Source of the DNA: a virus
Virus record (IMG/VR): IMGVR_UViG_3300035703_000320
Location: 1 to 30,851 of that record
Direction: 5' to 3' (one strand)
Length of the DNA: 30,851 nucleotides
The notes beneath the pieces are model-generated. The model made no database searches. It was not told the origin of the DNA and was given only the letters and a program-made list of their open reading frames with translations. The position numbers and the translations under genes are program-made. The stretch's first letter is position 1, and the number at the start of each line of letters is the position of its first letter. Below are positions 1-30,851 of this stretch, one piece after another.

Positions 1-50
1 AGTTCTGGAAATTGTTTATTAAAGTCGTCGTATTCAATTTTCTTTTTCAC
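1..50 (-). CDS. N-terminal fragment of a further gene, cut by window edge
   Basis: A GTG codon at 48-50 is preceded by a strong Shine-Dalgarno (GGGAGG, 8 bases upstream) and opens a frame that stays open to the left edge. The 16 readable codons give MKKKIEYDDFNKQFPE. It overlaps the 3' end of the metalloprotease lipoprotein gene by 17 bases, the same sort of overlap seen elsewhere in this operon. The lysine-rich start is not followed by a hydrophobic stretch in what is visible, so it is probably cytoplasmic. Function cannot be assigned from 16 residues. Confidence 0.6.
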   Translation of the reverse strand, partial: MKKKIEYDDFNKQFPE

Positions 51-648
51 AAGAAAGTCCTCCCGACTCGTCAATCATTGTGCTAGTAACACTAGCGACT
101 TCTGGTTGACTTGTCAAGGAAAGTTTTTCACCGGCTCTTGTAAACATAGCTTTTATCAGCTCTGGCCAATAGGCTTGAATAAACTTTTCAGGCAACAAAG
201 AGGAATTCATAATATCACTCTCGTCATCATAATGAGGGAATGGACTACCTAAAGCACAGTGGCCAACTTCGTGCATTACCAAAGTTTTCATTGACATCGA
301 ATCACTATCAATCCAATTATCTAAAATTTCTATCCATCTAGTCCCAACTGAAGAAATGTAGCATTTACCAACAACAAACTTTTCAGGAAAACTTTTAACC
401 ATGCGAATTGATGTGATATTTTTAAAATTGTTTTTACATACTTCAGCAGTTTCAAATTTTTCACAATATCCGGCAAATTCCATAACATGCGGAATAAGCG
501 GAGCATCAATTTTAGCAATGTCGATATAAAAGGGTTGCGGAACCGGCTTAGCAACTTCTACTGTTTCTACTGGCGCTGCCGTACCGCAGCCAATCAACAG
601 AACATGGGCCAAAAAAATGGCCCATGATGTGGCCCATGATAACTTCAT
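34..648 (-). CDS. Lipoprotein with zinc-metalloprotease (metzincin-like) signature
   Basis: This 204-residue protein starts with a hydrophobic signal segment ending in the lipobox LIGC (lipidated Cys21), so it should be exported and membrane anchored. A short proline/valine-rich linker follows. Residues 126-139 read HEVGHCALGSPFPH, an HExxH zinc site with a third histidine downstream, and DIMNSS at 145-150 resembles the Met-turn of metzincins. The Gly and third His are spaced slightly wider than in the canonical HExxHxxGxxH. Five further cysteines (62, 71, 96, 131, 200) could form disulfides. The start is set by GGAG seven bases upstream. It sits at the end of the small-lipoprotein run and overlaps the next gene. 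Seen: lipobox, zinc motif, Met-turn-like motif. Inferred: an active periplasm-facing or surface peptidase. The substrate is unknown. Confidence 0.82.
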   Translation of the reverse strand: MKLSWATSWAIFLAHVLLIGCGTAAPVETVEVAKPVPQPFYIDIAKIDAPLIPHVMEFAGYCEKFETAEVCKNNFKNITSIRMVKSFPEKFVVGKCYISSVGTRWIEILDNWIDSDSMSMKTLVMHEVGHCALGSPFPHYDDESDIMNSSLLPEKFIQAYWPELIKAMFTRAGEKLSLTSQPEVASVTSTMIDESGGLSCEKEN

Positions 649-3686: not shown

Positions 3687-6167
3687 TTAAACCAATTCCC
3701 AATCGCCTGAGACTGAGTTGGCAACAAACACATAAGATGCACCATCAGACTGAATAACAAAAGAAGCACCAATCCCGTCGATAGTATCAGAACCAGTCCT
3801 GACTACAGTAATCGTATTAACATATGAGTTATTTGATTTATCTTTAATAATCACTGTATGTCCGTCTCCAACTGAACTGATTGCTGGCAGTGTCAGTGTA
3901 GCAGCACCAACTGAAGTGTCAACAGAAAGAATATGGTCTGTTGATAAAACAGGATAGTTTCCTGAAACATCGGCTCTCTTGACAGACTGAGCGCCTTCAA
4001 TGCGAGTTACGCTGCTTGACTGTCCAATCTTAATTGATGTTGCGTTTTCAAACAAACGAGCCGGAGCCGCCGTTGAAGTAACATCAATCTCGGTGTCGTG
4101 AATCCATACATCTTCAATCTGAAGTCTTTGTGGAGTGGCTCTGCCTTTTGCTCCTACAACTGTTCCATCAAAGAACACAACGTATGAAGCCGAGCCAATA
4201 GTGACTTGCTTGGCCAACATAAAGACTTGGCGGTTATCGTAGTTTCTAAGAGGGGAGTTGGTTGGTTGTCTAATTTCAAAAACATTGGTTGTATTTACAT
4301 CATCTACGCTGCCAGATGTCAAAACATATGGAGTTGCAGAATAACTGTCTGAAATCTTTACCCAAAGCTCTTGTCCTGAACCCAAAGTAACGCTTCTGTC
4401 CATTTGGTATGTAAAGATGGCGGGGTTTTGAGTTGAGTTTGAGTTAATGCGGTTATTTGTCTTTCTCTTATGGAAAGAAAGATAAACAGTGCTGTCAATT
4501 GGAGAAAGAAGAGTTGGGTTGAAAGCTAAGACGTTTGAAACATATGCAACATCTGGATTCAAAACAAGAATTGGCTCTGCAGCAAAGTCGTTTTGATTTT
4601 CGTCGGTTGCTCCAGTATCAATAACTTCAATCTCTTCGCCTTCAGAAAGGTTGCCATAGTCTCTGAAATAGAAAGTAGAGCCTGTTCTGCGGCCAATCCA
4701 ATACCAATTTACGTCGTTGGCGGGAACATCGCCTACGCCTCTGACTTGCAAGTCGGCATTAGAGTATCTTGCTCTAAAGTATCTGAATGGCTCTGATGTT
4801 TGAGTAGGAATAACTCTGTCTAATTCTACAGCGCGGATAGTGGCATCAGCTACTGTTCCTTCTGTCGTAAAAACAGATGTTCCGTCATAGAGTTTCTCTA
4901 CTCTGTAATAAGAAAGAATACCATCTGACTCTTTCTTAATATAGTCACCAACGGCAACTCCAATGAATAGACCGTTTCCTTCGACTGATTTAGTTGAGTC
5001 TAATCCGCCACCGGGGGAAATTGTTGGCTTCCAATCCACAGGGCTGTTGGTAAGTCTTACCTCTCTCTGTAGTGTCAGATAAAGGGAATCGCCATCGTCG
5101 ATAGACGGAGAAGTAAAGTTTACGTTGCTGTAAACTCTTCCAGAAGAATATGTTCCACCGAGCTGCCACTTAACAGGGTAGCCATAATTAATTTGCCACT
5201 GAACAGTAGAAACGCCTTCGCTGCGCAAAATATTATCAGGAACGCCGGCGGTTGTTTTGCCCCAAAAGACTGTAGCTGAGGGAATAGCAAGGATTGAATG
5301 TCCTGCCTGAGAGTCAAGAAATAGGCTCAACAAAGACAGATTGATTGGATATCCAGAAGAACTCGCGGCATCTTGATACCAAGTCGGTGTTCCCTTGATT
5401 TCCTTCAATACCGACATTGTTGCATTAAGCCAATCTTTAAATGACTTGATGCCTTTATCGTTGAGTACAGTACCATTAATCGTGTTGGCATAATAAACGG
5501 ATGCTGGGTCTGTACTAGAAAGTTGAGACGGAATAGAAGATGTCTGTGGCGGCTCTTGCCTAACGGTTGTGTCCCAAGGATAGACATAAGCTGAATCAGG
5601 AGCGGTTCCGCCTGTTGCAAGTCTAAAGAACAGTTCACGAGAGTCTACGACTGAAGTAATATCAGAAGGGCCAGTTGTAATCTTAGCAATCTTAATAGAA
5701 TTAGGAGTAAACCCGCCAAATCTTTGAACAAGTTTTGGAATAACGACTTTTTGAGCGTCTACTGTTTCTGTATATTCAGAACCTGCAGGAGAGTCTGCGG
5801 TAATAGCTAATGAGTCCCAAAACCCTTTTGAGACAGGGCCTTCAGTAGATGTTTCGAGTACAAGCTCAAGGAAGATTTCTGAGTTAGACTGTAGGGCAGC
5901 GGTTAAATCAAGGTCTGCCGTCAAACCTTTATAGAATGGAGCTACTGGATTGTTTGGACAAAAAACTAAAGAATCTGCTACCTTAACGCTAATTGTTAAG
6001 CCCGACCAACCTGTAACTTCTAGACCCTTAACAACAAAAGACGTGTCTCCTGTTAAAGACATCAGGAAGTTGCGAATATCGTTGATGGTATAAGAATCAG
6101 TCGCAAGCAAATCAGGCAGGTCAACGCGCTGACCACCTAACCAGTTAACTCTTGATTGCACTGCCAT
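3687..6167 (-). CDS. Tail fibre / baseplate appendage protein
   Basis: This 826-residue beta-rich protein starts behind TGGAGTAAACT. The N-terminus (QSRVNWLGGQRVDLPDLLA, then TINDIRNFLMSLTG) resembles attachment segments of phage appendage proteins that dock on the baseplate. The long middle is made of beta domains with no visible enzymatic motif. The C-terminal 90 residues (about 737-826) match a common fibre end-domain pattern: YPVLSTDHILSVDTSVGAAT, LTLPAISSVGDGHTVIIKD, then an N-x-ITV-x-x-x-GSDTIDG stretch and a final W-E-L-V. It lies just after the wedge/gpI-like gene, the usual fibre position. It may recognise the host surface or be a baseplate-bound adaptor for another fibre outside the window. 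Confidence 0.75.
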   Translation of the reverse strand: MAVQSRVNWLGGQRVDLPDLLATDSYTINDIRNFLMSLTGDTSFVVKGLEVTGWSGLTISVKVADSLVFCPNNPVAPFYKGLTADLDLTAALQSNSEIFLELVLETSTEGPVSKGFWDSLAITADSPAGSEYTETVDAQKVVIPKLVQRFGGFTPNSIKIAKITTGPSDITSVVDSRELFFRLATGGTAPDSAYVYPWDTTVRQEPPQTSSIPSQLSSTDPASVYYANTINGTVLNDKGIKSFKDWLNATMSVLKEIKGTPTWYQDAASSSGYPINLSLLSLFLDSQAGHSILAIPSATVFWGKTTAGVPDNILRSEGVSTVQWQINYGYPVKWQLGGTYSSGRVYSNVNFTSPSIDDGDSLYLTLQREVRLTNSPVDWKPTISPGGGLDSTKSVEGNGLFIGVAVGDYIKKESDGILSYYRVEKLYDGTSVFTTEGTVADATIRAVELDRVIPTQTSEPFRYFRARYSNADLQVRGVGDVPANDVNWYWIGRRTGSTFYFRDYGNLSEGEEIEVIDTGATDENQNDFAAEPILVLNPDVAYVSNVLAFNPTLLSPIDSTVYLSFHKRKTNNRINSNSTQNPAIFTYQMDRSVTLGSGQELWVKISDSYSATPYVLTSGSVDDVNTTNVFEIRQPTNSPLRNYDNRQVFMLAKQVTIGSASYVVFFDGTVVGAKGRATPQRLQIEDVWIHDTEIDVTSTAAPARLFENATSIKIGQSSSVTRIEGAQSVKRADVSGNYPVLSTDHILSVDTSVGAATLTLPAISSVGDGHTVIIKDKSNNSYVNTITVVRTGSDTIDGIGASFVIQSDGASYVFVANSVSGDWELV

Positions 6168-6201: not shown

Positions 6202-8733
6202 CTATTCATAAGGCTTAATACTTTCGTCAGCAAAACGCAGCTCTGGGTACAATACATCCTCTGTAACGAAAACGCCAGCCGAAATTACTGTTTTGATAAT
6301 TTCAAAGAAAGAATCTCGTGCTTTTGATGTTCCTGTCAAAAATGGTTGGAACATCGTACCGCTAACTGAAGGACTGAACGGAGTGAGCTGTTTAACTTGC
6401 CTAACCGTTGCCCCATTCTCATGGGAAAACTTAAATGTATAAGCAGGGTCTATTACAATTTGGTTTCCTGAAAGAGCCAAATATCGAACAGGACCTTCTT
6501 CTGTGGCTGTACCATAGTTAAATACAACATAGCCGCCCTCAAAAGAAAACTCCGCTGCTGAATCAACCAAAGCAATAACGCCGCTTTCGCCTTTCAAAAT
6601 ACGAGCGTTTGTGTTTGTGCCGACATTTGAGGGCAAATATTTATAAACCACGCCTTGTGGGTCATAAAGATAAGAACCTAAGAACAAAGGACTTTCTGGT
6701 TTAACATAGTCTGCTATTATCATTTCTAGATTATTCAAGAACATTGCTTGGTTATTTGAAGCTGTTTTATCAAAATAACAAGTCGTATTTGAGCCGCCCC
6801 AATGAACTTCGGTTGTTTGAATTTTGACGTTAGAGGCTATGACCTGATTAGGAATAACAGACCAGTCATCGACAATATCAAAGTCTACGCTGTTGGTGCC
6901 TACACTAGAAACAACATGGACTCGTGTTTTTAGCTGTTGCCACGCATAAGAGTTAAATACGCTGGCCGTTCCATCTTCATACAATTTAAACTTCTTGCCA
7001 ATAAATCCTAACTTAGACAAGTTAAGGGCTGAGGTAGATGAATACTGCAGTCTGTATCTCTTATTTCCCAAAGCATACAGAATAGCTGTTGACGTTGAAG
7101 GAGGTGCGATATTTTTTTGGTTAATCTTAAAAGAAATTTTAGTTGGAGAAATGACTTTGTTAACAGTCCATGTACCGTTAAGGTTAAGGCTGTTAGCAGG
7201 GTTGGTTGTAGCCGCATTGATGATAATTTGAGAGTTTTGAATTAGACCATGGCGATAATCAAACTCTAGCTCAACCATATCAGAATCAAAGTCACAGAAA
7301 AATGGATTAGTGACTCCGACTAACGTGGGGCTTGTGTATGGCAAAACAGCGTACTCATCAGATGTATCAAGAGTCATGATGCCATTTGTGGTATTAATGC
7401 TCAATACTTTGAATTTTTTCTTAGAATAGTCTGCCGTAAACATAGGAGATTCTAATACAAATGTAGTCCCTTGAGGGGGCAACTGTACGCTTGTTGCTAC
7501 ACTAATCTTAAGAGATGAGCGAGTAAAGTCCTGAACAGGATGCTTAATTCCATAAATATGCCATGCGCCTTCAAGAAAGCGTTTGACGATGGGCGGGACG
7601 GCTGGCACTGTAATTGCCAGCTCATCATCAGTCATTTCGCTAAGATATGAAAAAGCAGATTGTTCATATACTCTGTGAGGGACGTTTTCTGTAAAAATAA
7701 CATCTCTTGGAGAAAGCTGAAGCAACTCACCTTGATTATTAATAGGGAGTCTTAAATATTTATTTCTTATTTTAAAGTAATCATAACCCATCTCTATAAT
7801 TTCATAAGTTCCGTTCAATACGGAATAATTACCTTGAACAAGGTTTACAGCAACTGTAACTAGGTTACCGTTGTTGTCGATAATGTCGTCTCCAAAAATA
7901 TCCTGAATAGGGATATTAACGGTGCCACTTGCTCCTACATCAAACTGATTTCTGATTGTGACAATATCTCCGACTTTTGTCAAAAAGACGGATGGTAGTG
8001 GGCCGCTTTGATACGTAAAAGTAATGATGTCTGAGTAATCAGCAATTTTAGATATTAACCAACGTGTCTGAACCGTATTGGTTGTTGGAATGACATTAGG
8101 GAACAATAGAAGGTTTTGTAATGTTCCGCCGGCAACCTGAATGATTTCATTTGGACCAGAACCACTGGCTATCAGTCTAATTTTGTTTTTACCAATGGCT
8201 CTGTCGTAAAAAACAGCAGCAATATAATGGTCTTGAATTGAATTGATATAAGTCGCTAATTCAGATGCCGTAATGTTTTTTAAGCTAGAGAACATAGTTG
8301 AGTCGATGGTCAGCCTATGCTCTGCTTCACGAGTTTTAACAATAAGGTCGTCGCCCTCTTTGAGCCGATATGGCTCCGGCTGAGCGCATACAATATTTGG
8401 ACGCGACAAGGGTTGAGAAAAATAAATCTCCATAATCTGAATAAGCAACGCAAGAGTTGTCTTGGGTTGGTTAATCATAAGAGGGGCTAACGGTTTAAGC
8501 CCCTCAACGTTAAGACCGGCATCTCTTGGAAGATAGAAGCCATTACGGGCCGCTAGCTTGAATACATACTCAGCATCGGCTGTAGTAAAAAAGAACTGAT
8601 TTTGAGCATATTCTGAGTATTGTTCAAGTTGTGCAACAATCTCGTCAGCACCGTCAAGGAAGGCATTAAGAGCGGGAGCCTGCTCTTTATTTGGTCTAGC
8701 CACTAAAGGCAAGTATTGACGAACATTTGACAT
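6202..8733 (-). CDS. Baseplate wedge / gpI-like structural protein
   Basis: The 843-residue product follows the J-type wedge gene by two bases, the place of gpI in P2-like and gp7-like proteins in T4-like tails. The N-terminal 115 residues are helical (EQAPALNAFLDGADEIVAQL, DAEYVFKLAARNGFYLP, KTTLALLIQIMEIYF). Residues about 126-212 carry a domain also found in the J-type neighbour (NITASELATYINSI ending in GGTLQNLLLFPN). Beta domains with an NGT-(Y/W)-x-I core follow at about 240-330 and 493-541. The C-terminus is helical (FFEIIKTVISAGVFVTEDVLYP). Seen: domain sharing and position. Inferred: it joins wedge to fibre. Exact equivalence to gpI or gp7 is not proven. Confidence 0.65.
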   Translation of the reverse strand: MSNVRQYLPLVARPNKEQAPALNAFLDGADEIVAQLEQYSEYAQNQFFFTTADAEYVFKLAARNGFYLPRDAGLNVEGLKPLAPLMINQPKTTLALLIQIMEIYFSQPLSRPNIVCAQPEPYRLKEGDDLIVKTREAEHRLTIDSTMFSSLKNITASELATYINSIQDHYIAAVFYDRAIGKNKIRLIASGSGPNEIIQVAGGTLQNLLLFPNVIPTTNTVQTRWLISKIADYSDIITFTYQSGPLPSVFLTKVGDIVTIRNQFDVGASGTVNIPIQDIFGDDIIDNNGNLVTVAVNLVQGNYSVLNGTYEIIEMGYDYFKIRNKYLRLPINNQGELLQLSPRDVIFTENVPHRVYEQSAFSYLSEMTDDELAITVPAVPPIVKRFLEGAWHIYGIKHPVQDFTRSSLKISVATSVQLPPQGTTFVLESPMFTADYSKKKFKVLSINTTNGIMTLDTSDEYAVLPYTSPTLVGVTNPFFCDFDSDMVELEFDYRHGLIQNSQIIINAATTNPANSLNLNGTWTVNKVISPTKISFKINQKNIAPPSTSTAILYALGNKRYRLQYSSTSALNLSKLGFIGKKFKLYEDGTASVFNSYAWQQLKTRVHVVSSVGTNSVDFDIVDDWSVIPNQVIASNVKIQTTEVHWGGSNTTCYFDKTASNNQAMFLNNLEMIIADYVKPESPLFLGSYLYDPQGVVYKYLPSNVGTNTNARILKGESGVIALVDSAAEFSFEGGYVVFNYGTATEEGPVRYLALSGNQIVIDPAYTFKFSHENGATVRQVKQLTPFSPSVSGTMFQPFLTGTSKARDSFFEIIKTVISAGVFVTEDVLYPELRFADESIKPYE

Positions 8734-8735
8734 TT

Positions 8736-11700
8736 TTACTGTCCAACATTAATGTTTGTTGCTGGGTCAATAACGACTGCCTTTTCATTATCTGCTACTG
8801 GGATTCTTCCGTCAACTGCAACGGGCAGAGTTTCAATAATTTCTACGGAAGTCACCCCTGGAATATCTTGAACAATACTAATAAGTTCACTAAGAATGAC
8901 AGCTTGTCCAAGACCAAGACCACTGACAAACGAAGCAATCGCAGAGCGAACTACAGCGGCAATCGTGTTGATTGAAATACCGTCGCGTGTTCTGACTCTG
9001 AATGTTACTGCAATGGAGCGAGGAATTGGTGGCAATACTGACACGTCTGTACCCGTGGCCTTGATGCCGGGGTAGCGGCTAATAGACGTAGGTACGCCAT
9101 CAACTGTTCTTTGTGCTTCTCGAATCAAACCACCAAAAATCTTATATCCGTCAATACCTGTTTTGGGAGCGGTTTCATATCCAAGTTTATGAACACATGC
9201 AATTTCTGTACCAAGAGAGTTTGAAATCTTTTGGTATGACTTTGCAGGAGCCAGATATAACTGTGAGTTTTCTGTATTCTTGGGGTCGATAGACCATCCT
9301 TGAACAAGACGGAATGCAGAGAACGGAGTCTTCTCGATAAACCCAATACTCTCCTCATTTGCCGCAGAAACAATAATCTGCAGAGATGTTGGTGGAGCAC
9401 CGTTTGGCATTTCAAATTCAATGTATTGACAAATACTAGCTGATGGACCATAAAAGCCAATTTCTGTTACAGTCCATGTTCCTGTTAGTGCAGTTGGGAA
9501 CCAGTTTGTTGACCCCTGCGCACCTGAAGAGATTGATAGCTTGCAGCCAGTAATAACAGACTCGGCATCAACAATGCGTACTGGTCGAGGGTCAATTGTG
9601 TAGTCTAATGGGTCAGTATCTGCAACTTCAACTTGCTTGCCCCACCAAACCTTACCAATTTCATTTGTATTTCTTGTTTGAGTGTCATACACAACATCTT
9701 CAATTGGAAGGATGGGGTTGTATAAGATAATTGTGTTTTTGCTATCATGAGCAACTACTTGATACTGGCCATCGGCTCCTGAGCCAAAACCATTCAAGAA
9801 CACATAGTCATCAGAGTTTACGCCACACTCAGCCAAGAGCATAGTGTCTGTTGCATAGTCAGGAGCAGTGACGTTATCTGAAGTGTTAGATAACATAAGT
9901 GCCGAGAAGCCATCAGACAATCTCTTCAAGATGCCGTATGAATAGACGCCGGCAATGGATTGTGCATGTGTTCCTTGGGTTGCTACATTGCCTAAGACTT
10001 CAACACCTTGAGGGCCGGCTTTGTAGTTTGTCTTAATGTTCTTCTCTGTATAGACAGTAGGAACAAAGACAAGGTCTGTTGCTGCAGCAAGAACTAGGGC
10101 ATGGTTTTGAGTCAAGTTAGGAGCAATAACAACAACGCTAGTTGAGCTATTGACTTGAACAACGGGATAACCGGCATAACCACTAAGGCCATATTGATTA
10201 CTGTAAAGTCCGCTGCTCATAACAAGGCCGCTATTGAGTGCGGGACAATTAACTTCAGCAGGGAATCCTGCCGAACGAACATACATCATGTCCCCGATAC
10301 GTGCTGATAATGTTCCCGCAGAACATGTGACTGTAGCTAGACCGACAGAGGGGGTATCGTATGTCACGTTAATGGTTGTGCCTGCGGTTAAAGGCTCTAC
10401 TGCGCTAACCGTAATTCCCGCAATCGTGCCTGACTGTCCATTTCTCATGAAATACAAGCGACCGTGGGTTGAGTCTGCTTGTTCATAAATAATGTTTGTG
10501 CCCACCCTAAACCATGTTTTTTCGTTTGCTGTATTGGCTGCCGTTTGGTTGGCAAGAGGAGAAGCAACGCGGAACGGTCTGTACATATCAGTTGCAAGAC
10601 CATTTGTAACATGGACAATAGAGTCTTTAGGAAGCTGTTTTGTCTGAGCGGTCAACAATGGGAAATATGCCGAACCATTTTCGGAAGACGCGGCATCCAA
10701 TACAACTGTTTTATAGTTGTTTGCAAGAGTGTCTTTAGGATAAACGGCTCCGCTTGTACCTCTGAGCTTAGAAGAAATCTGAATTTTGCTTGCACCTTCG
10801 GCGCGAGCAATATCAGCCTGAATAGGCAAGGAAGACGCTGGAGCAAAGTTTGCCCATCGGTTAAAAGTAGCTGCGTTGGTTGGCATAAGGTAAACTTCTT
10901 CTCCAATTGAAGAGTAAGAAGTGCCTTGAATTGCGCTACCGCTTGGGAAGATAGAGTCTGCAGACTGAGCTGTAGCCTTAATTTCATTTAATGTTGAGTT
11001 GTAATCATAAATTGAACAGCCTTCAGAGCGGTTTGCTGAAAATACATGGAACAACAAAGCCGCTGCAGGGGTTGTAATAGACGATGGCAAAGATGCCGTA
11101 TTTGTATAGTTTATGTACGTAGAGCGCGGTACTTCCGGCGGATTTGGAATCAAAACGTCGGTTGTGTTTAGCCCTAAAGTTTCTGCAGTAACAATTGGGG
11201 TGTCTGGTAAATAGGCATTAATAGCGTCGGCCAAGTCTTTGAGTGACTTGGGTGCGGTCGGGAAGGATTGCAACTGATACTGAGACGCATTAAAGACTGT
11301 GGTGACAGCAGTTGCTGTAGAAAGTCCTGTGTAGTTGGGTACGCGAATAGTTATTTCTGCTGCAGACGGTTTAGCAACAATTGGCCATACACCAATTGGC
11401 ATTGATGTTGCTGTTTGAGTGCCCAATACTTGTAACAGGTTGTTTGCAGTATATGAACCGGCAAATGCGCCGTCTGTTTGGTCTGCTCCGCCGCTTGTGT
11501 AAATAAGATTAAATGTATTCTTTCCGCCTGTAAAAAATACTTTTGCAAAAGTTAACAAGTAAACAGATGCGCTGGTTGAATAGTTAGAGCTTGCGATTGC
11601 GTTTGGCAAAGCTGCATCTAACAAAGATGGCAAGCTAGAAAGCGGATATGTTGTATTACCCAAGAGATTGATTGTGATTTCTTTTGTTGTGCGGTCTACT

Positions 11701-14700
11701 GTTACAGACGGAGTTGCGGCTGAACCAGTATTAATACACTGAATTGACCAAGTATTTCCAGCTTCTCCGCGAATAGCAGGGCCGTAATCAATTTGGTTCA
11801 TTGTAAAAGTAATGACATTCGGGCCGGGGTTAATAACCTTAGCTGGAACTTCTGCTGAATAGTTATACGCAAACGGATTGACAGAAAGATTGCCCGTTCC
11901 CGTTACAGTCTCAAGATACGTACTAACTGACAACGCTGCCGTAAGTTTTGTGGCATCTGGAGTTGTGCCAAACAAGTCAATTGTGACTTTCTTAGTAGAC
12001 TGGGCCACCATTGTCACAAGTCCGGTAGTTGTTCCTGTATTAGCTGTAGACGGAATATCTCCGCCTGTTTGGCTATAGGTAAATGTTGTAGGAGCAACAC
12101 TTACAATAGTAAACGTGCCGTTTACTGCGGTTGTTGGAGTAGCTGCAACTGTAACTCTTTGGCCGACTTTATAGCCATGATTTTTGTCGGTTGTAATAGT
12201 AACGACTTGAGACGTTTTAGAAACATTTGTAATGTTAGATACTTCGGTTGATGAGTTGGCAAGCTGTACCGAGCCGCTATCTGGAGTAGAAGGTACGTCT
12301 GTACCGCTAAGAGCATATGTAAATGTTGTAGATGTGGGAGCAGTTGCAATAGTAAACGTACCATTAAGAGTTGGCTGTCCGCTTGTTGCTATTGTGACTT
12401 TTTGTCCGGCATAATATCCATGAGCCGATGCAGTTGTAATGGTAACTGTGTTTGTTGTTCTAGCGACATTTGAAATAGTGCGTGTTTGCGTACTGGCCAA
12501 AACCTGACGGCCAGTGTTTTGAATAGTAAGCTCAATATTGTTGCCTAGAACACCGGGGAAGCCGGACGCTCTTGCCGATACTACAAAGTTATAAGCAGGG
12601 GACAAGGATTCAATACTAGCTACTGCTGTAATAGCTGGCTGGAATGTAGACAACGTGATGTCTGCAAGATTGTTTGATGTTGAGAAGTTCGTAACCGCAT
12701 AAGTGCCTGTGGACAATAATGTAGAAGGCACAACGGATTGAGACGCCATCTCTGCGCTCAAGATTGTATGCACTTCTCCGTTTTCATATACGTTTACGTG
12801 TGACACAGTAATGTCTGTTTTGTCCGGTGTTTGCGGATACAAAACATTTAGTTTAATCTTGTTGGCTCCGCCAAATGACGTAGAGCGCACTACAAGAGAA
12901 GGCTCACTGCCGCTGAGTCCTGCGCTATTGAGTTTGTATACACCAACGGACTTGCCTACCACCTTGAAGTCATTGAAGTCAAAGTTCTTAAAAGGACTTG
13001 TAACATCAAAGAACTCTTTATCAAAATCTTCAGGGTCTTTAAGTGTAAAGTAATACTGTTGACCTTTACCGCCTGTTGAGCTGATAAGGATTTCATCAGA
13101 AACAACCGCTTTCTTGTATAGAGGCAAAGTAACTGTTTTATTAGATGGGTCCAAGTCCATTTCAACAACAAACTTGTCGTATGGAGTTAGAGACAAGTCT
13201 TGTAACCTAAAAGAAATATTTGAATATCTGTTTAAAGTGTCGGTTGTATTATTGATGGCACCAATGGGCTTGATTGCGCTGTCTGTTCTTAGGATTCCTT
13301 GGAATGGAGTGCTGGTTTGGTTATTGTAAACACGCCCTGTCCAGCCTGACAACTTACCTGTAACCCAAGTCTCTTGGAACCCTGTTGGATAACTAGACAC
13401 AAACGAAGCCGCTTGTGCAATAGGGTTGATAGATGTCTGTGTAACTTCTGTAAAGTTTGGAGCTACCCTGAGGTAGTCTCTAGCTGCATATCCTGCTGCG
13501 GGAGATGAGGGCAGAATAGTTTGAGAAACAATTGGGAATCCGCCGTCAAGATAAGAAGAACTGGAAGACCCTACGTGAGACTGAAGGCTTGTGCCGTCAG
13601 CAGAGGTAAATAAGTTACCTGCTTTACCAAATGCAGCTACAATTGAGATGGCCCCATCTGTATATGTATTTGTTCTTAAGAAGAAATACTGTCCGGTGCT
13701 TCTCTCTGCAGCAGCGCCAATAATTTGAGAATTAACTTCAGTGACAACGTCTTCTACAATAACTGCTGCTGAGGAAGTAAAGCTTACAACTTGAGGGGTG
13801 ACTGTTGAGCTAAAGATTTTGAAAACAGCAGCGCCTTGGTATGATGTATCGTACTCATCTACAAGCACAAACGCCGAAGATGCTTGAAATGCAGATACTT
13901 CAATTACAATTGTATCTACGTTGGATACGCCGCGCACAATATTTTTAATTCTATAAAACCCAACGGCGTCATCGGATACACTCTTGAATCCAGCAAGAGG
14001 AGTTATTGCATTTTCTTTGATGTTTGTGAGATAGAGGTAGTCGCCAACTGCAGCATTAATGAAGAGTCCGTTACCTAATTGGTCTGTAAGAGAAACAGTC
14101 AGCTCATTAGCATCAACATCTGTAACTTCAATTATTCCGCCAGTAATGTTTCCTGTACTCTTAACTGTCACAGAACCATCAACGGCAACGATAATCTTAG
14201 ACTGTCCAAAACCTGGGTAGTCGTTTGATAGGTCATAAGTGCCGCTCAAAGTAGTTGTTGATTTAATAAATGCGCGGGTATTAATAGATGCAATTTCAAC
14301 AATATCGCCCGCTTGTAGACGAGAAACAAAACGAATGTCACCTGTGTACCTATTGAAAGTGTAATCTTTAGAAGCACCTACAGAAGTTCTTTCTGATAAG
14401 CTGGGCGAAAATAGAGATGCTGTTCCAATCCAATCTCCAGCCGTAATAGTTACTTCGCTCGATGAGTTGTTTTCTTTATTTGATGTAATAATAAATCTGT
14501 TGTCTTGGAAGATAACAGTCACGCCGGGAATCTTTGACTGAAGAATCTCTCTCCAGTTGTCGGCAGTAGCTACTGCCATAGTCACACCAAAGCGTGACAA
14601 GAAATCGGTATTTGTAATATTTGCAATATTGACAGTCACTCCGTCAATAACCGCCTGCAGTCCTGTATATGGAGCGCCCGTAATTGACCAACTTGAAAAC

Positions 14701-16196
14701 GGATTTGAAGAAATTGTTGCTGTTTGACCCTTAAATGACTGAAGAATTCCGTTTTTGTAAAGATAGATTGGTCTTTGTGAAACAGTTGGGAACCCAAGGA
14801 CTGTTTGTAATGCTCCTGAAATAACTCTGATTTCTTCTGCTGCATTTGTTCTGTCAATTGCAACAATGCGGCGACCGTTGTCAATAACGCGGAAGTCTAG
14901 AATACCTTCAGCGTCTGAGTTAAGGTCACGAACGACTTCATAAGCGGTTGCTGCCGTAATATCTTTGTAGTTAGAAGGAGTTATGGTATAAACATAAGGA
15001 ATATTGTCGATTAAAAAAGTGATTGACATGCCTGCTTGAATAACATACGGAGCAAGCTGAGCACCTGTCACAATAGCAGGAGTAACGGGAGCTTGAGCCG
15101 TCCTAAAACCTTGCTCAAGACCAGACGCTCTGGCCAGAAGAAGTTCATAATCCTGACCTGCAAAAACAGGTTCAAGAAGCGAACCGTCATCAATATAAAC
15201 AGTAGTAGGCTCGCCTCTTTCAAGAGGACGAATAACAGAGGCAGAAACAACTTTCTTTTTTGTATCAGCATCAACAACTGACAATAAAGCTGAGTTAATT
15301 GCGCCAATTGTACCGCGAGCGAGTGTGTTGGGGTAATCTTTAATTCTGAGTCTGAGCGAAGCGTCTGATTCTGTGTCCGCACCATTTACAAATGGCAAAT
15401 TATTTGCAACGGTTGCGCCGGCAAAGGGTTCTGTAGCAAATTCACTAATAGCGCCCGACGCCACATTACCAACAACGCCAAATTGAGTGCAAGTAACGGA
15501 AACAATAGCTTGGTCTTCGCCGTCTGGCAATACAACAGCCGCATCAGTAGTGAACTGAATTGCCGGAGCATCCGCATAAGCAGGAACTTGAACAACTGTA
15601 GATGCATTGATGTTTCTGTCGCCGCCCTGAGCAAGAACAATCTCGTCTGTATAAGGATGGTCTTTGGTTAGGGGGTCAACTAGATTAATAATCCAATATG
15701 TTCCTGTAGAAGAGATGCTTGCATAAGAAATTGGACCCTCAAAAGAGTCAACTGTATTGCGGCCAATATAAATCTTGCCGTTGGTTGGAGTCTTGGCAAA
15801 CATCTCTGATGCGTCTTGAACATAAAGAGTCTTTGAACCCGCGTAAGGAGCTGGCTTGCCCGCATAAGCGCGAGTTGAAATCTTTTTAAATCCAGAGCCA
15901 ATAATAACTGAACCAGTTGCCTGCAATGCAGACTGACGGCCAACGCCGCCTTGACCGTTTGGAATCTTGAGAGACTCGGCCAAATCATCGAGCCTCTTTT
16001 CAGTTAAGTTGTCTACTTCTGTAACTTCAAGGACTTTTAAAACAGAAAGCTGTGCTTGATAGACCTGTTGGGCAATAGCTTCCATCAATGTTACAAGAGC
16101 ACCGCCTGCTTGAAAGTCAGTAATATCAGTATTATTCTTGATTCTTCTGACCCAAGTGCCTAGTAGCTGCTCTTTGGATTTAATAGTAACGGTCAC
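8736..16196 (-). CDS. Giant baseplate J/gp6-type wedge protein
   Basis: The start is taken as GTG at 16196 because GAGGAG lies six bases before it. The TTG two codons upstream abuts the Shine-Dalgarno. The protein has 2486 residues. The N-terminus (KEQLLGTWVRRIKNNTDITD, then a wedge-type VDNLTEKRLDDLAESLKI) and NGADTESDASLRLRIKDYP at about 268-286 are hallmarks of baseplate J proteins. The last 100 residues (IPRSIAVTFRVRTRDGISIN, then SELISIVQDIPGVTSVEI) match the J C-terminal domain. Between them lie about 2000 residues of beta-rich modules, including two copies of a domain shared with the next gene (about 390-470 and 492-596) and two tandem 81-residue HGY repeats. P2 gpJ and T4 gp6 are far shorter (about 300 and 660 residues). 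Confidence 0.88.
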   Translation of the reverse strand: MTVTIKSKEQLLGTWVRRIKNNTDITDFQAGGALVTLMEAIAQQVYQAQLSVLKVLEVTEVDNLTEKRLDDLAESLKIPNGQGGVGRQSALQATGSVIIGSGFKKISTRAYAGKPAPYAGSKTLYVQDASEMFAKTPTNGKIYIGRNTVDSFEGPISYASISSTGTYWIINLVDPLTKDHPYTDEIVLAQGGDRNINASTVVQVPAYADAPAIQFTTDAAVVLPDGEDQAIVSVTCTQFGVVGNVASGAISEFATEPFAGATVANNLPFVNGADTESDASLRLRIKDYPNTLARGTIGAINSALLSVVDADTKKKVVSASVIRPLERGEPTTVYIDDGSLLEPVFAGQDYELLLARASGLEQGFRTAQAPVTPAIVTGAQLAPYVIQAGMSITFLIDNIPYVYTITPSNYKDITAATAYEVVRDLNSDAEGILDFRVIDNGRRIVAIDRTNAAEEIRVISGALQTVLGFPTVSQRPIYLYKNGILQSFKGQTATISSNPFSSWSITGAPYTGLQAVIDGVTVNIANITNTDFLSRFGVTMAVATADNWREILQSKIPGVTVIFQDNRFIITSNKENNSSSEVTITAGDWIGTASLFSPSLSERTSVGASKDYTFNRYTGDIRFVSRLQAGDIVEIASINTRAFIKSTTTLSGTYDLSNDYPGFGQSKIIVAVDGSVTVKSTGNITGGIIEVTDVDANELTVSLTDQLGNGLFINAAVGDYLYLTNIKENAITPLAGFKSVSDDAVGFYRIKNIVRGVSNVDTIVIEVSAFQASSAFVLVDEYDTSYQGAAVFKIFSSTVTPQVVSFTSSAAVIVEDVVTEVNSQIIGAAAERSTGQYFFLRTNTYTDGAISIVAAFGKAGNLFTSADGTSLQSHVGSSSSSYLDGGFPIVSQTILPSSPAAGYAARDYLRVAPNFTEVTQTSINPIAQAASFVSSYPTGFQETWVTGKLSGWTGRVYNNQTSTPFQGILRTDSAIKPIGAINNTTDTLNRYSNISFRLQDLSLTPYDKFVVEMDLDPSNKTVTLPLYKKAVVSDEILISSTGGKGQQYYFTLKDPEDFDKEFFDVTSPFKNFDFNDFKVVGKSVGVYKLNSAGLSGSEPSLVVRSTSFGGANKIKLNVLYPQTPDKTDITVSHVNVYENGEVHTILSAEMASQSVVPSTLLSTGTYAVTNFSTSNNLADITLSTFQPAITAVASIESLSPAYNFVVSARASGFPGVLGNNIELTIQNTGRQVLASTQTRTISNVARTTNTVTITTASAHGYYAGQKVTIATSGQPTLNGTFTIATAPTSTTFTYALSGTDVPSTPDSGSVQLANSSTEVSNITNVSKTSQVVTITTDKNHGYKVGQRVTVAATPTTAVNGTFTIVSVAPTTFTYSQTGGDIPSTANTGTTTGLVTMVAQSTKKVTIDLFGTTPDATKLTAALSVSTYLETVTGTGNLSVNPFAYNYSAEVPAKVINPGPNVITFTMNQIDYGPAIRGEAGNTWSIQCINTGSAATPSVTVDRTTKEITINLLGNTTYPLSSLPSLLDAALPNAIASSNYSTSASVYLLTFAKVFFTGGKNTFNLIYTSGGADQTDGAFAGSYTANNLLQVLGTQTATSMPIGVWPIVAKPSAAEITIRVPNYTGLSTATAVTTVFNASQYQLQSFPTAPKSLKDLADAINAYLPDTPIVTAETLGLNTTDVLIPNPPEVPRSTYINYTNTASLPSSITTPAAALLFHVFSANRSEGCSIYDYNSTLNEIKATAQSADSIFPSGSAIQGTSYSSIGEEVYLMPTNAATFNRWANFAPASSLPIQADIARAEGASKIQISSKLRGTSGAVYPKDTLANNYKTVVLDAASSENGSAYFPLLTAQTKQLPKDSIVHVTNGLATDMYRPFRVASPLANQTAANTANEKTWFRVGTNIIYEQADSTHGRLYFMRNGQSGTIAGITVSAVEPLTAGTTINVTYDTPSVGLATVTCSAGTLSARIGDMMYVRSAGFPAEVNCPALNSGLVMSSGLYSNQYGLSGYAGYPVVQVNSSTSVVVIAPNLTQNHALVLAAATDLVFVPTVYTEKNIKTNYKAGPQGVEVLGNVATQGTHAQSIAGVYSYGILKRLSDGFSALMLSNTSDNVTAPDYATDTMLLAECGVNSDDYVFLNGFGSGADGQYQVVAHDSKNTIILYNPILPIEDVVYDTQTRNTNEIGKVWWGKQVEVADTDPLDYTIDPRPVRIVDAESVITGCKLSISSGAQGSTNWFPTALTGTWTVTEIGFYGPSASICQYIEFEMPNGAPPTSLQIIVSAANEESIGFIEKTPFSAFRLVQGWSIDPKNTENSQLYLAPAKSYQKISNSLGTEIACVHKLGYETAPKTGIDGYKIFGGLIREAQRTVDGVPTSISRYPGIKATGTDVSVLPPIPRSIAVTFRVRTRDGISINTIAAVVRSAIASFVSGLGLGQAVILSELISIVQDIPGVTSVEIIETLPVAVDGRIPVADNEKAVVIDPATNINVGQ
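11988..12473 (-). repeat. Two tandem 81-residue HGY/NGTFTI protein repeats
   Basis: Inside the giant wedge gene, codons from 12473 and from 12230 begin two copies with an exact 243-base period at the NV anchor. Copy 1 contains VTITTASAHGYYAGQKVTIA, NGTFTIA and TFTYALSGTDVPST. Copy 2 contains VTITTDKNHGYKVGQRVTVA, NGTFTIV and TFTYSQTGGDIPST. The DNA has diverged, so the duplication is not very recent. The outer end of copy 2 is approximate. Confidence 0.85.
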
Positions 16197-16251
16197 GCCC
16201 AACTCCTCAATAAGATTCAGGTGACTGTATTTTAGAATGAGGGTCTGTATT

Positions 16252-16275
16252 TTTCAAGAAGAAATTAGCTTGAAA
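16252..16275 (-). other. Short hairpin over the stop codon of the LysM-gp25 gene
   Basis: On the minus strand TTTCAAG is followed by a 10-base loop containing the TAA stop and then CTTGAAA, a perfect 7-bp inverted repeat. No U-run follows, so it is not an intrinsic terminator. It could be chance in AT-rich sequence. Confidence 0.35.
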
Positions 16276-17821
16276 CGAAACTCAATGGAATTATTACGTT
16301 GGAACCGTCAACTGTTACAATAATATTGATTGAGATTGAGGTTTCATTTACTGTGAGGTTTTGAACGACAACGTTTGAATAACGTCCGTCCGCTAATATA
16401 ACACTTTGTAATATTTCAGAAAATGCTGCAGCCAGCTCAATATTGCCATAAAATCTCTCACCAATTGCGTTTGCAAATGGAATTCCATATTGCGGATGAA
16501 ATGGTAACTCGTTGATATTAGTGTTTAAAAGAGAAAATATAGCTTGTCTTACTGCCGGCATGCCATAAACAATATCAAAATCGCCATTTTTTCCAATTTG
16601 TAATTCACCCGAACGCTCATCTCTTCTAATATCAACGCCAAAATCTAATAAAGCCTTGTCCAATCTTTTAAGAACATCTAAAGATGGTTGTTTACCTTGA
16701 ATTAACGGAGAAGGTGCACTAATTGGAACAAGCAAAAGTGAGTTTTCATTTGCAGTTTGAGGTTTATAAATTTTTACATAAGCTTTTTCTGATAGCTTAA
16801 GTTTGGCTAGGTCTTGTTCGCCAGAAAGGGAAAGAATCATCGTACCGTCATCAAATTTAACAATCTTTAAAACTGAACGAATTTCTTCTTTTACTGTATA
16901 CGAACCAATCTTAATTTTTGTTCCCACTTTAATCAAATTGGCTTGATTTGAGGAAATTTTTACTGAGGCCAAAGTCCCTGGGCCTAGCAAATATTCTTTG
17001 GTTCCTGTTTTATCAACAAACGGAGGCTGAAGGTTATTGATAGTAGCAATCTCAAACCATTTATCTTTTGAACCCAAATATCTGTTTGCCATAACCTCTA
17101 GCGACTCGACAAAAGGTACAGCAATTGCCGCTGTGTACGCCTGATTAAACACAACTTGAGTATCTGGGTCTGTATTTCTATTTGCAACCGCTAATAGATT
17201 GGGCTGCTGAACTGTTTGTTGTTGTAAATAATAAATAATACCGTCTATTTCATCGGCTAAATCAAAAATATCATTAATTTGCTCTAGTTCTTGAGTTGAG
17301 TATCCGCGCTGAGCCTCTATTAAAGAAAAACCCTGTACAAGAACACCGTCATCATCGCCCAACCCAACCGTTTGAGCGGCACCAGCAGCGCTGCTTCTTA
17401 AAAAGAACGTCATGTCTTTAAAATCTGTAACAGAAAGACTTTTAAGTCGTTTTTGCTCTTCTTTTAAAACAATTGCCTCTGCGGGCGTCAATCCAATGTC
17501 TGAAAGAGAAATGTAAGATAATATTGGCTTATATTTGATGAATTTGATTGAATTTAAAAATGGATTGGTGCTAGTTGTTGGAAACAGTTTTTGAGTTGTA
17601 ATTTCATTATTAAGGCTTTTTAATAAATTAATAAAAAAGTCTGATTTTGGTAATGTTTTTTTAAAGTTAGGATAAAAACGTAATTCCCAATTTTTAACCA
17701 ACCAATCCCATCTATCAATTGCAATTGTAGGAACATCCGCCAAAGTAAACGTAGCATTCTTAGATGCTTTGACGTATCCTAAATAATCTGACAGGACTTG
17801 GTCTAAATAAGTATAAGCCAT
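16265..17821 (-). CDS. Baseplate wedge protein with LysM and gp25-like domains
   Basis: The 518-residue protein starts behind TAAGGAAACGCA. Residues about 235-286 form a LysM-like module (VPFVESLEVMANRYLGSKDK, WFEIATINNLQPPF, LLGPGTLASVKI), of the kind T4 gp53 carries. Residues about 391-484 match the gp25/gpW baseplate family (FGVDIRRDERSGELQIG, AVRQAIFSLLNTN, LPFHPQYGIPFANAIG, then AAFSEILQSVILADGRYSNV). gp25 is normally a separate protein of about 130 residues, so here gp25 and a gp53-like function seem fused behind a 230-residue N-terminal part of unknown fold. It should form the inner baseplate ring that templates sheath assembly, next to the J-type wedge gene downstream. Confidence 0.8.
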   Translation of the reverse strand: MAYTYLDQVLSDYLGYVKASKNATFTLADVPTIAIDRWDWLVKNWELRFYPNFKKTLPKSDFFINLLKSLNNEITTQKLFPTTSTNPFLNSIKFIKYKPILSYISLSDIGLTPAEAIVLKEEQKRLKSLSVTDFKDMTFFLRSSAAGAAQTVGLGDDDGVLVQGFSLIEAQRGYSTQELEQINDIFDLADEIDGIIYYLQQQTVQQPNLLAVANRNTDPDTQVVFNQAYTAAIAVPFVESLEVMANRYLGSKDKWFEIATINNLQPPFVDKTGTKEYLLGPGTLASVKISSNQANLIKVGTKIKIGSYTVKEEIRSVLKIVKFDDGTMILSLSGEQDLAKLKLSEKAYVKIYKPQTANENSLLLVPISAPSPLIQGKQPSLDVLKRLDKALLDFGVDIRRDERSGELQIGKNGDFDIVYGMPAVRQAIFSLLNTNINELPFHPQYGIPFANAIGERFYGNIELAAAFSEILQSVILADGRYSNVVVQNLTVNETSISINIIVTVDGSNVIIPLSFVSS

Positions 17822-24804: not shown

Positions 24805-25332
24805 TTATTCGGCTTTTTCTTCTTTATCGACGGGGCGTTGGGCCTCTGAAAGCTGACGATTTAGTTCAATAATAGGCGTATAATCCAACAAATGGTACCC
24901 GCCCAAGTCCTCTCCTTTTGGTTTCCACCAATCCGGAGCTTTAACGATATGGGCATTTAGGACGGCAAGCATTTGAATAAAATCCGCCTGTGGGTCAACA
25001 TCCTTTAGTTCGGGAAGGATTCCCTCAATAACCCTGCGAACCGCTTCGTCACTGGAAAATAAAGCAATTTTGTCTTTGTTTTCAATTTCTGAAGCAACCT
25101 CGTCGTGAATATTTTTAAGTGCATCCTGAATTCCGCCCAACAAAGCAGGAACGCTATAGGACGGCGGGCGACGCAACCCTGTCGAAAGTCTATTGGCTAC
25201 GCGGGACGACTCTGTAACATCTTTATGTGATAGAAATTTTTTAAGCTCAAAAAGACCTTGATACTTTTCTCCGGTTGTTGAACCAACGCAATCAAGCTCA
25301 ATAAAAATAACGGGATTAAGTGGGCTGCTCAT
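24805..25332 (-). CDS. Tail assembly chaperone, second ORF
   Basis: The 175-residue soluble protein lies directly upstream of the tape measure gene, the position of tail assembly chaperones (lambda gpT-type role). It has its own ATG with AGGAG eight bases before it, inside the end of the preceding ORF (17-base overlap, +1/-2 register). Residues 1-45 (PLNPVIFIELDCVGSTTGE, then YQGLFELKKFLSHKD) are followed by helices. A WW-containing C-terminal segment (APDWWKPKGEDLGGYHLLDY, then TPIIELNRQL) resembles the ends of myovirus chaperones. Position and overlap are the main evidence, and I recognise no exact family. Confidence 0.62.
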   Translation of the reverse strand: MSSPLNPVIFIELDCVGSTTGEKYQGLFELKKFLSHKDVTESSRVANRLSTGLRRPPSYSVPALLGGIQDALKNIHDEVASEIENKDKIALFSSDEAVRRVIEGILPELKDVDPQADFIQMLAVLNAHIVKAPDWWKPKGEDLGGYHLLDYTPIIELNRQLSEAQRPVDKEEKAE

Positions 25333-26662: not shown

Positions 26663-27337
26663 TTAGACTGCGGAACCAAATCCAGATAGGTCGGATTCGT
26701 CTCTTCCGCCCTCAGCTCTATCTTCAGATACTAGCAATGTGCCGGTAAATGAAAACGATTCCGTAAGGAGCTGCCCTGCAGAAATGCTAGCTGAACGAGA
26801 GTTAAGTCTGCAATTTTGCACAGTAAAGTGTTTTACAAGAACACCTTGATTATTTAGAGAGGCGCTTTTGCCCGCAACTGTATCAGTTGTTGGGTACATC
26901 TGCCATACTTCAATATCAAAAGTAGAAGAAGCAAGTACCGAAGCAGGGTCTAGGTGCTTTTTGAGGTTTTCAGTTGCGGTCACCAAAGAGTTTGCTGTGC
27001 CAACTCCTCCGGTTGTTGCGCCTGAGATTCCTGTCAATGCGGGGTCCGGTTCAGACTTAAGGCCATCTTTGCGGGCAGGGTCTTTTCCTGCTGTAGCCGC
27101 CTCTACTATTTTGGTGCGGGAGTCAGAGTCAAGGAGTCTTACAATCTGCATGCTGCCAGAGACGCCGTTGTACATTGTTGCCTGAATAGCAACTGAAGCA
27201 AAACTACCGAGTGTATTGACAATCTGTACGTTTCTGCTTACACGAAGGTCTAGGCCAACAGCATATGCAACTTTGACTCCATCAATCTTGAGGAGCAGCC
27301 TTGGGCCAGACATAAAAAATGGAGTTTGAGCTGCCAT
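26663..27337 (-). CDS. Tail tube paralogue 2
   Basis: The 224-residue protein starts behind AAAGG and follows paralogue 1 by 12 bases. It shares the tube pattern with it: FMSGPRLLLKIDGVKVAYAV near the N-terminus, STFDIEVWQMY in the middle (paralogue 1 has STFDIEVYTR) and a C-terminal strand pair (SASISAGQLLTESFSFTG). It is longer because of an inserted, probably flexible Lys/Gly/Thr-rich stretch around residues 83-130 (GKDPARKDGLKSEPD). Tail tube proteins form the inner channel, and the gene follows the sheath and precedes the terminator, consistent with high expression. Whether this one or paralogue 1 is the main tube protein is not clear. Confidence 0.75.
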   Translation of the reverse strand: MAAQTPFFMSGPRLLLKIDGVKVAYAVGLDLRVSRNVQIVNTLGSFASVAIQATMYNGVSGSMQIVRLLDSDSRTKIVEAATAGKDPARKDGLKSEPDPALTGISGATTGGVGTANSLVTATENLKKHLDPASVLASSTFDIEVWQMYPTTDTVAGKSASLNNQGVLVKHFTVQNCRLNSRSASISAGQLLTESFSFTGTLLVSEDRAEGGRDESDLSGFGSAV

Positions 27338-27349
27338 TGTTGGTTACCT

Positions 27350-27901
27350 TTATACTTTGGTAATACGTTCATCTTTGTCTTCGATTAGACGACAAAGAAT
27401 AGAAATATCTTCTGACACAAGAGCACCTACGTTAAAGCGAATAGACAAGTCCGTAATCAAACAGTCCTTCATTTTATATGTAGGAGCGCTTGATAGGGTG
27501 TTTTTCTCTCCAACGCGAGTATAAACTTCAATATCAAAAGTAGATTCTAATAACATTTTAACTGGAGAAAAACTATTGAGCATCATCAAAGAGTTACCGT
27601 CTGATGCTCTGTCTTTAATCATACCCGTTGTTGAACTAATTGAGTTTACGTTGCCTTGCATTGGAGAGATGTTGTTTTTCTTTCCCAAAGCCGCTGTGGT
27701 GTAACGCAATACTCTGAGAGACGCCTGAGCTGAGTAAACCAAAGGCTCGTTAGTATGAGGACTATACGAACCGATACCCATAGTCAACTGCGAGGCCATA
27801 TTATCAGAGAAGCTAAGAGCTTCGCAAAAAGCAAACGGCTTGCCGTCTACTTTGATGACGAGTCTTGCTCCGTCGAGAAATGATGGTAATTTATTTGCCA
27901 C
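27350..27901 (-). CDS. Tail tube paralogue 1
   Basis: The 183-residue protein comes directly after the sheath gene, the canonical place of the tail tube gene, with a Shine-Dalgarno TTAGGAG. The tube-like features are FLDGARLVIKVDGKPFAFCE, ALSFSDNMA and SAQASLRVLRY in the N-terminal half, STFDIEVYTR in the middle, and a terminal strand pair (CLITDLSIRFNVGALVSEDI). Similar length and motif order are found in the next gene and again at 25717-26259, so this phage has three tube-fold proteins. Identification rests on position plus the motif pattern common to T4 gp19-like and related tubes. Confidence 0.75.
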   Translation of the reverse strand: MANKLPSFLDGARLVIKVDGKPFAFCEALSFSDNMASQLTMGIGSYSPHTNEPLVYSAQASLRVLRYTTAALGKKNNISPMQGNVNSISSTTGMIKDRASDGNSLMMLNSFSPVKMLLESTFDIEVYTRVGEKNTLSSAPTYKMKDCLITDLSIRFNVGALVSEDISILCRLIEDKDERITKV

Positions 27902-30768: not shown

Positions 30769-30809
30769 ATCTATGGCTCCTGAATATTGTGGCCAAACGC
30801 TACATGTAG

Positions 30810-30835
30810 ATTTTATCAGATTTTCAGAAAAAACC
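30810..30835 (-). promoter_or_regulatory. Candidate promoter upstream of the sheath gene
   Basis: On the minus strand TGATAAAAT (30818-30810) resembles an extended -10 element (TGn then TATAAT with one mismatch), 41 bases before the sheath ATG. The -35 region is poor (TTCAGG at 18-base spacing), so this is only a candidate. The leader would be about 35 bases and carry the CAGGAG ribosome binding site. Confidence 0.35.
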
Positions 30836-30851
30836 TGAATCAAATTGAAAT

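Follow-up and report, generated by a model that had tools for sequence, protein, structure and literature searches.

Few parts of contractile tails are as conserved as proteins of the J type. The genome fragment analyzed here (30.9 kb, positions 1-30,851 of the IMG/VR virus record IMGVR_UViG_3300035703_000320, in the following called the window) encodes a protein with J hallmarks that comprises 2,486 residues. The J proteins of phages Mu (gp47) and phi812, of diffocin and of pyocin have the same fold as is found at the ends of this giant protein and lie in the same gene order, but they possess only about 300-390 residues and no inserted arm. The question is thus whether this giant is a genuine J protein, where its additional residues are inserted and what they could contribute to the baseplate.

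The giant J gene and its insertion point

The giant J gene occupies positions 8736..16196 on the minus strand. It is one uninterrupted frame of 2486 codons, followed by the stop codon at 8738-8736, and its likely start, judged from the nucleotide sequence, is the GTG at 16196-16194 with the Shine-Dalgarno motif GAGGAG upstream (16208-16203). All residue numbers given below are counted from this GTG; numbers in the Pfam and PHROG searches run two higher, because the frame was begun at the TTG codon at 16202 in those searches. The protein matches Pfam Baseplate_J (PF04865) at 4e-15 (56.2 bits against a curated cut-off of 21.1) and PHROG 6, baseplate wedge subunit, at 6e-27. By these matches it is a J-type (gp6 / Mu gp47-like) baseplate wedge protein, and its assembly into the virion is predicted.

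A protein of this length could be suspected to result from fused or frameshifted genes in a faulty assembly or gene call. The probability of such an artefact is negligible, because full-length relatives at 71-96% identity (L002 and L003 at 88 and 96%, others at 71-80%) are single open frames with the same layout. About 60 loci show it in one intact open frame, which rules out frameshift, fusion or mis-assembly, and the cultured and sequenced Myxococcus phage Mx1 has a giant J as well. The enlarged J protein of the original prediction, encoded by one gene with no hidden frameshift or stop, is therefore confirmed as real and well conserved.

As reference for the ordinary J fold we used an alignment of J proteins of 341-391 residues from phages and mainly clostridial genomes, which was compared with both ends of the family by profile-profile alignment (hhalign). 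Window residues 5-343 correspond to canonical J residues 2-237 (probability 99.9, E 6e-31), and window residues 2375-2475 to canonical J residues 248-343 (probability 97.8, E 1e-12). If the two ends are joined in one profile, this aligns right through the canonical J (E 1.6e-39). As only some ten canonical J residues lie between the two end matches, residues 344-2374 (2,031 residues) represent an insertion at a single point. In terms of sequence, about 2,030 residues are inserted at one junction, just before the C-terminal domain, in an otherwise complete J protein. The hallmarks at both ends and the roughly 2000-residue insertion had thus been recognized properly, and the limits proposed for the ends (1-330 and 2385-2486) were correct to within about 15 residues.

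The N-terminal J part (residues 1-343; 15168..16196, minus strand), supported by hhalign and by the AlphaFold (AF2) model of the homologue L084 described below, contains a helical core-bundle segment, a beta domain and an alpha/beta domain that reaches the insertion point. A second, small insertion is located within it at about residues 98-192 (15621..15905, minus strand). It is seen as a gap against canonical J in hhalign, amounts to approximately 80-95 residues in comparison with clostridial J proteins and is present family-wide. The C-terminal J domain (residues 2375-2486; 8739..9074, minus strand) is likewise recovered by hhalign and matched by its AF2 model. Between them lies the putative arm (residues 344-2374; 9075..15167, minus strand), a beta-rich multidomain segment that has no canonical J counterpart and whose homologous middles vary while the ends stay constant.

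In ten larger relatives (108-187 kb, Mx1 included) a six-frame Baseplate_J search found no second J gene. Baseplate_J matched only this open frame, most often divided into an N-terminal and a C-terminal piece, and the PHROG 6 match was likewise split, at about profile position 300. A second J of ordinary size elsewhere in the genome is therefore absent from these ten relatives (the window itself is a fragment), and the giant J, being the only J gene there, would be the phage's only J-type wedge subunit.

Distribution and size range of giant J proteins

In two scans of IMG/VR, relatives were found to be encoded in at least 239 stretches, of which 80 were retained for the family analysis. The 61 full-length proteins (window and Mx1 included) range from about 1,135 (L084) and 1,142 residues (L056) to 2,532 residues (L083) with a median of 2,239. 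These are open-frame or trimmed lengths, and the choice of start shifts them by a few residues. The window protein is thus found near the top of the family, below its maximum. The N-terminal part (median 344 residues, standard deviation 12) and the C-terminal part (median 138, standard deviation 3) are nearly constant, and the middle extends over 659-2,058 residues (standard deviation 261). Inserts of such different size at one fixed point show where wedge proteins tolerate additions, and the family offers a size series for the stepwise growth of a baseplate appendage. A search with the short form L084 gave no close relatives outside its own contig.

Among 50,697 phage records Mx1 contained the only clear long homologue. 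The giant form is conserved in this one cultured phage and in dozens of contigs from uncultured phages. A long contractile tail is described for Mx1 (PMC10720576). Its “baseplate protein J-like protein” (WNM70274.1, in OR576727) is homologous over the whole length, with N- and C-terminal matches (E 8e-81), and the gene next to it encodes a protein homologous to the wedge partner of the window. With 1925 residues against 2486 it is shorter, and the two are about 30% identical. The protein is annotated but we found no study of it (PMC10720576). With this cultured relative the giant J becomes directly testable.

Further long relatives are deposited in UniProt as “Baseplate protein J-like” of uncultured Caudovirales phages (A0A6J5KUV1, A0A6J5L250 and A0A6J7WUL1). 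They were the top structural matches of the L084 model (E 7e-70 to 8e-59), and BFVD splits all three into pieces of 927-1,306 residues. Giant J proteins are thus already in the databases, and the family explains many very long “J-like” entries that carry no functional comment. We found these three as database entries only, with no description of the insertion, and in our literature searches giant phage J proteins were nowhere described. A scan of a genome collection gave a single large homologue (L094) besides ordinary J proteins of clostridial genomes. This family member of 1,140 residues (6218-9640 of its contig) was binned with an Omnitrophota metagenome-assembled genome and could belong to a phage or prophage of that phylum.

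Predicted structures and anatomy of the insert

As a structural stand-in the natural short relative L084 (1,135 residues, full-length) was modelled with AF2 from a family alignment of 45 rows, which yielded a mean pLDDT of 85.1 and a pTM of 0.69. Its Foldseek matches in the PDB are J wedge proteins, namely those of phi812 (E 4e-10), phiCD508, Bas63, Mu, diffocin, A-1(L) and T4 (gp6), together with a chain of 1,227 residues from the Anabaena injection-system baseplate (7b5h, E 1.2e-7). The C-terminal domain of pyocin J (5ces) is matched with a TMt of 0.77. In the alignments with J chains the rmsd is high (about 15-24 A), since the superposition treats a multi-domain chain as a single body; these alignments support the folds of the domains and not their relative placement. 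The model also matches the flagellar cap protein FliD (6iwy at E 5.6e-6, 9m6i and 5h5t), which we read as reflecting its repeated middle domains.

The AF2 model of window residues 1289-2486 (1,198 residues) is of mixed quality with a mean pLDDT of 64.8. The last 270 residues mostly reach 80-92, although values dip around positions 1050-1100 of the segment. Positions 77-480 of the segment (residues about 1365-1780) are largely below 50. Its best credible matches are J proteins (5ces, R2 pyocin, diffocin and phiCD508 J). For 5ces a TMt of 0.71, an rmsd of 2.9 and a probability of 1.00 were obtained at a weak Foldseek E-value of 0.039, and this match of the C-terminal J domain holds independently of the N-terminal J part, which the segment does not include. 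Fold searches with both models thus returned J-like matches and, along with hhalign, bear out the anticipated J fold rebuilt from two ends around a separate beta-rich multidomain middle. We consider this architecture very probable.

The arm itself was resolved by iterated family HMMs into several repeat domains. Domain 1 (residues 370-471; 14784..15089, minus strand) resembles the hook-IN domain of FliD, as indicated by the family HMM and by the FliD match of the model with equivalent repeats. Domains 2 (residues 492-596; 14409..14723, minus strand) and 3 (residues 797-862; 13611..13808, minus strand) were found with iterated HMM E-values of 8e-17 and 2e-8. Up to five copies of this hook-IN-like repeat occur in short J forms and one in the wedge partner. 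For the distal arm no known fold is accepted here, the matches to Faustovirus, lyase and similar structures being of low probability and derived from a low-confidence model. The whole-family profile compared with PDB sequences retrieved the J core (phi812 ORF62, phiCD508 gp65, A-1(L) gp31) and nothing credible for the arm.

At about residues 1160-1600 (11397..12719, minus strand) the arm has a hypervariable centre, where column occupancy drops to 0.01-0.5 compared with values near 1.0 at both ends of the protein. Conserved arm stretches flank it on both sides, and it is probably the distal tip of the arm. Within the centre lies a segment of 156 residues (1231-1386; 12039..12506, minus strand), delimited by pairwise alignments and the iterated HMM. 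It is composed of two tandem repeats (1246-1303 and 1327-1383) that are E1-FCCH-like and correspond to PHROG 9998 (1.4e-6). The window clade has this segment, and relatives with 77-80% identity (L004, L006 and L020) lack it cleanly at the corresponding position, which shows that a domain pair was recently gained or lost in the arm centre. Such concentration of variation in the centre, including the domain pair, would fit a J protein that bears the adsorption domains itself, so that the insert acts mainly as a receptor-binding arm with its centre as host-range determinant. However, a separate fibre-like gene and a wedge partner are kept downstream, and PDB searches with the low-confidence arm model gave no carbohydrate-binding, lectin or receptor-binding fold. 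We regard a mainly receptor-binding insert as unlikely.

Wedge neighbours and the putative arm

The gene order of the window (sheath, tube proteins, tape-measure candidate, tail proteins, gp25-like protein, J, wedge partner, fibre-like protein) is by sequence that of a contractile-tail module. Its part from gp25 to the fibre-like gene is the same in Mu and P2; in Mu it reads BW1 gp46, BW2 gp47 (two copies per wedge), BW3 gp48 and fibre gp49 (PMC11915804). The first wedge protein, the gp25-like protein or sheath initiator (16265..17821, minus strand), matches PHROG 975 (8.6e-18) and PF10934 (5.9e-4) and adjoins J in relatives. In the window it has 518 residues with the gp25 domain confined to the last 120 or so, and in many relatives it reaches 700-950 residues, which means that all three wedge proteins are enlarged.

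Downstream of J follows the wedge partner in gpI / Mu gp48-like position (6202..8733, minus strand), assigned by its shared domains and its conserved position; the gene after J in relatives is usually its homologue, and short partner relatives match the baseplate PHROG 1160. HMMs detected in it a hook-IN-like domain (residues 108-212; 8095-8412, minus strand) and an FCCH-like repeat (residues 484-543; 7105-7284, minus strand). That two types of repeat domain are common to the partner and the J arm suggests domain exchange between two wedge proteins. It also speaks against the view that the giant J is a polyprotein whose middle is cut out at maturation and serves separately as chaperone or scaffold in tail assembly. 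The size alone could raise this view, but both J ends would then need to associate as separate pieces, and we consider it very improbable. The next gene (3687..6167, minus strand) is tentatively fibre-like, with a weak match to PHROG 972 (0.0067), and its homologues usually follow the wedge partner. With both genes directly downstream of J, here and in most relatives, the earlier suggestion that the arm takes over the work of fibres or connectors is not supported; the wedge partner is itself enlarged and not lost.

The partner has 434-446 residues at three loci with a short J and roughly 530-1,600 residues elsewhere, and its length rises with that of J. With a Spearman coefficient of 0.48 (n=41), or 0.34 if the three short forms are omitted, this correlation is weak, and it comes from related sequences that are not independent. 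Taken with the enlargement of the partner and the two shared domain types, it could be understood if the insert were an inert, rigid spacer or stabilizer that sets the width of the baseplate or braces the wedges and the partner and makes no host contact. A hypervariable centre would nevertheless be unusual for a buried brace, and with a length correlation this weak a purely structural insert appears as improbable as a mainly receptor-binding one.

Structural precedents at smaller size are known from contractile injection systems. Alg11 of AlgoCIS is, like the giant J, a J/gp6-family wedge protein with a large domain after its N-terminal J domains and further domains following; this domain IV (278-643) forms a cage around the spike, tilts outward by about 27 degrees on firing and was proposed as an attachment aid (PMC8894135). 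Its insert has only some 365 residues with two carbohydrate-binding-module folds, and it belongs to a secreted injection system and not to a phage. In the tCIS of Anabaena the wedge protein Cis11 is likewise enlarged; it has three additional domains, and one of these forms a cage (PMC8894136). It has half the size of the giant J and also carries a C-terminal extension (7b5h; the chain matched by the L084 model may be Cis11). The likeness of both proteins to the giant J concerns their layout, and the junctions (J residues 237/248 here, 278-643 as published for Alg11) are likened by position only.

Since the chain exits the J fold and comes back to it at a single place, the insert is expected to loop out. 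The best overall explanation, which we hold to be reasonably probable, is a J wedge subunit with a looped-out arm that contributes to a skirt or cage. The insert would be a flexible multi-domain arm whose two roots lie at the J junction in the wedge, beginning with hook-IN-like beta domains, conserved toward both ends and with the variable centre as probable tip. A baseplate would carry six or twelve of these arms, surrounding the spike and the wedge ring in the manner of Alg11 domain IV, and the idea of twelve copies follows Mu, where J holds inner and outer wedge positions. The outward arm or skirt proposed originally is plausible in the light of the Alg11 cage, but its shape and direction are not predicted by the poor arm model; that an external arm or cage exists on the tail tip is rated just as probable as the overall explanation. 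The arms may touch the host envelope first or in a secondary step, relay the contact to the wedge and trigger contraction, a role that we regard as possible but somewhat short of probable. Separate fibres would still dock on the downstream wedge partner.

The family predicts an unusually large tail-tip structure. More speculatively, and rather doubtful at present, widespread and almost entirely uncultured contractile-tailed phages might carry external skirts on the megadalton scale, built from twelve J copies whose arms reach about 2,060 residues at most. Having grown by insertion of repeat domains in the centre, these skirts would form a class of host-contact structures separate from fibres.

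Some other genes of the window deserve mention. The sheath-like protein (27949-30843, minus strand) has 964 residues, which is above the usual size, and ends near the end of the contig. Two adjacent genes (26663-27337 and 27350-27901, minus strand) encode paralogous proteins (mutual BLAST E 1e-8) that are tail-tube-like by position, perhaps as the result of a duplicated tube gene. Between the tube and tape-measure candidates, frames of 127 and 175 residues overlap by 17 bases (25316-25332); in many tailed phages a programmed frameshift or coupled chaperone genes are found at this position. Finally, a small protein encoded at 34-648 (minus strand) has a lipoprotein-like N-terminus (LLIGCG) and the motif HEVGHCALG, and is zinc metalloprotease-like.
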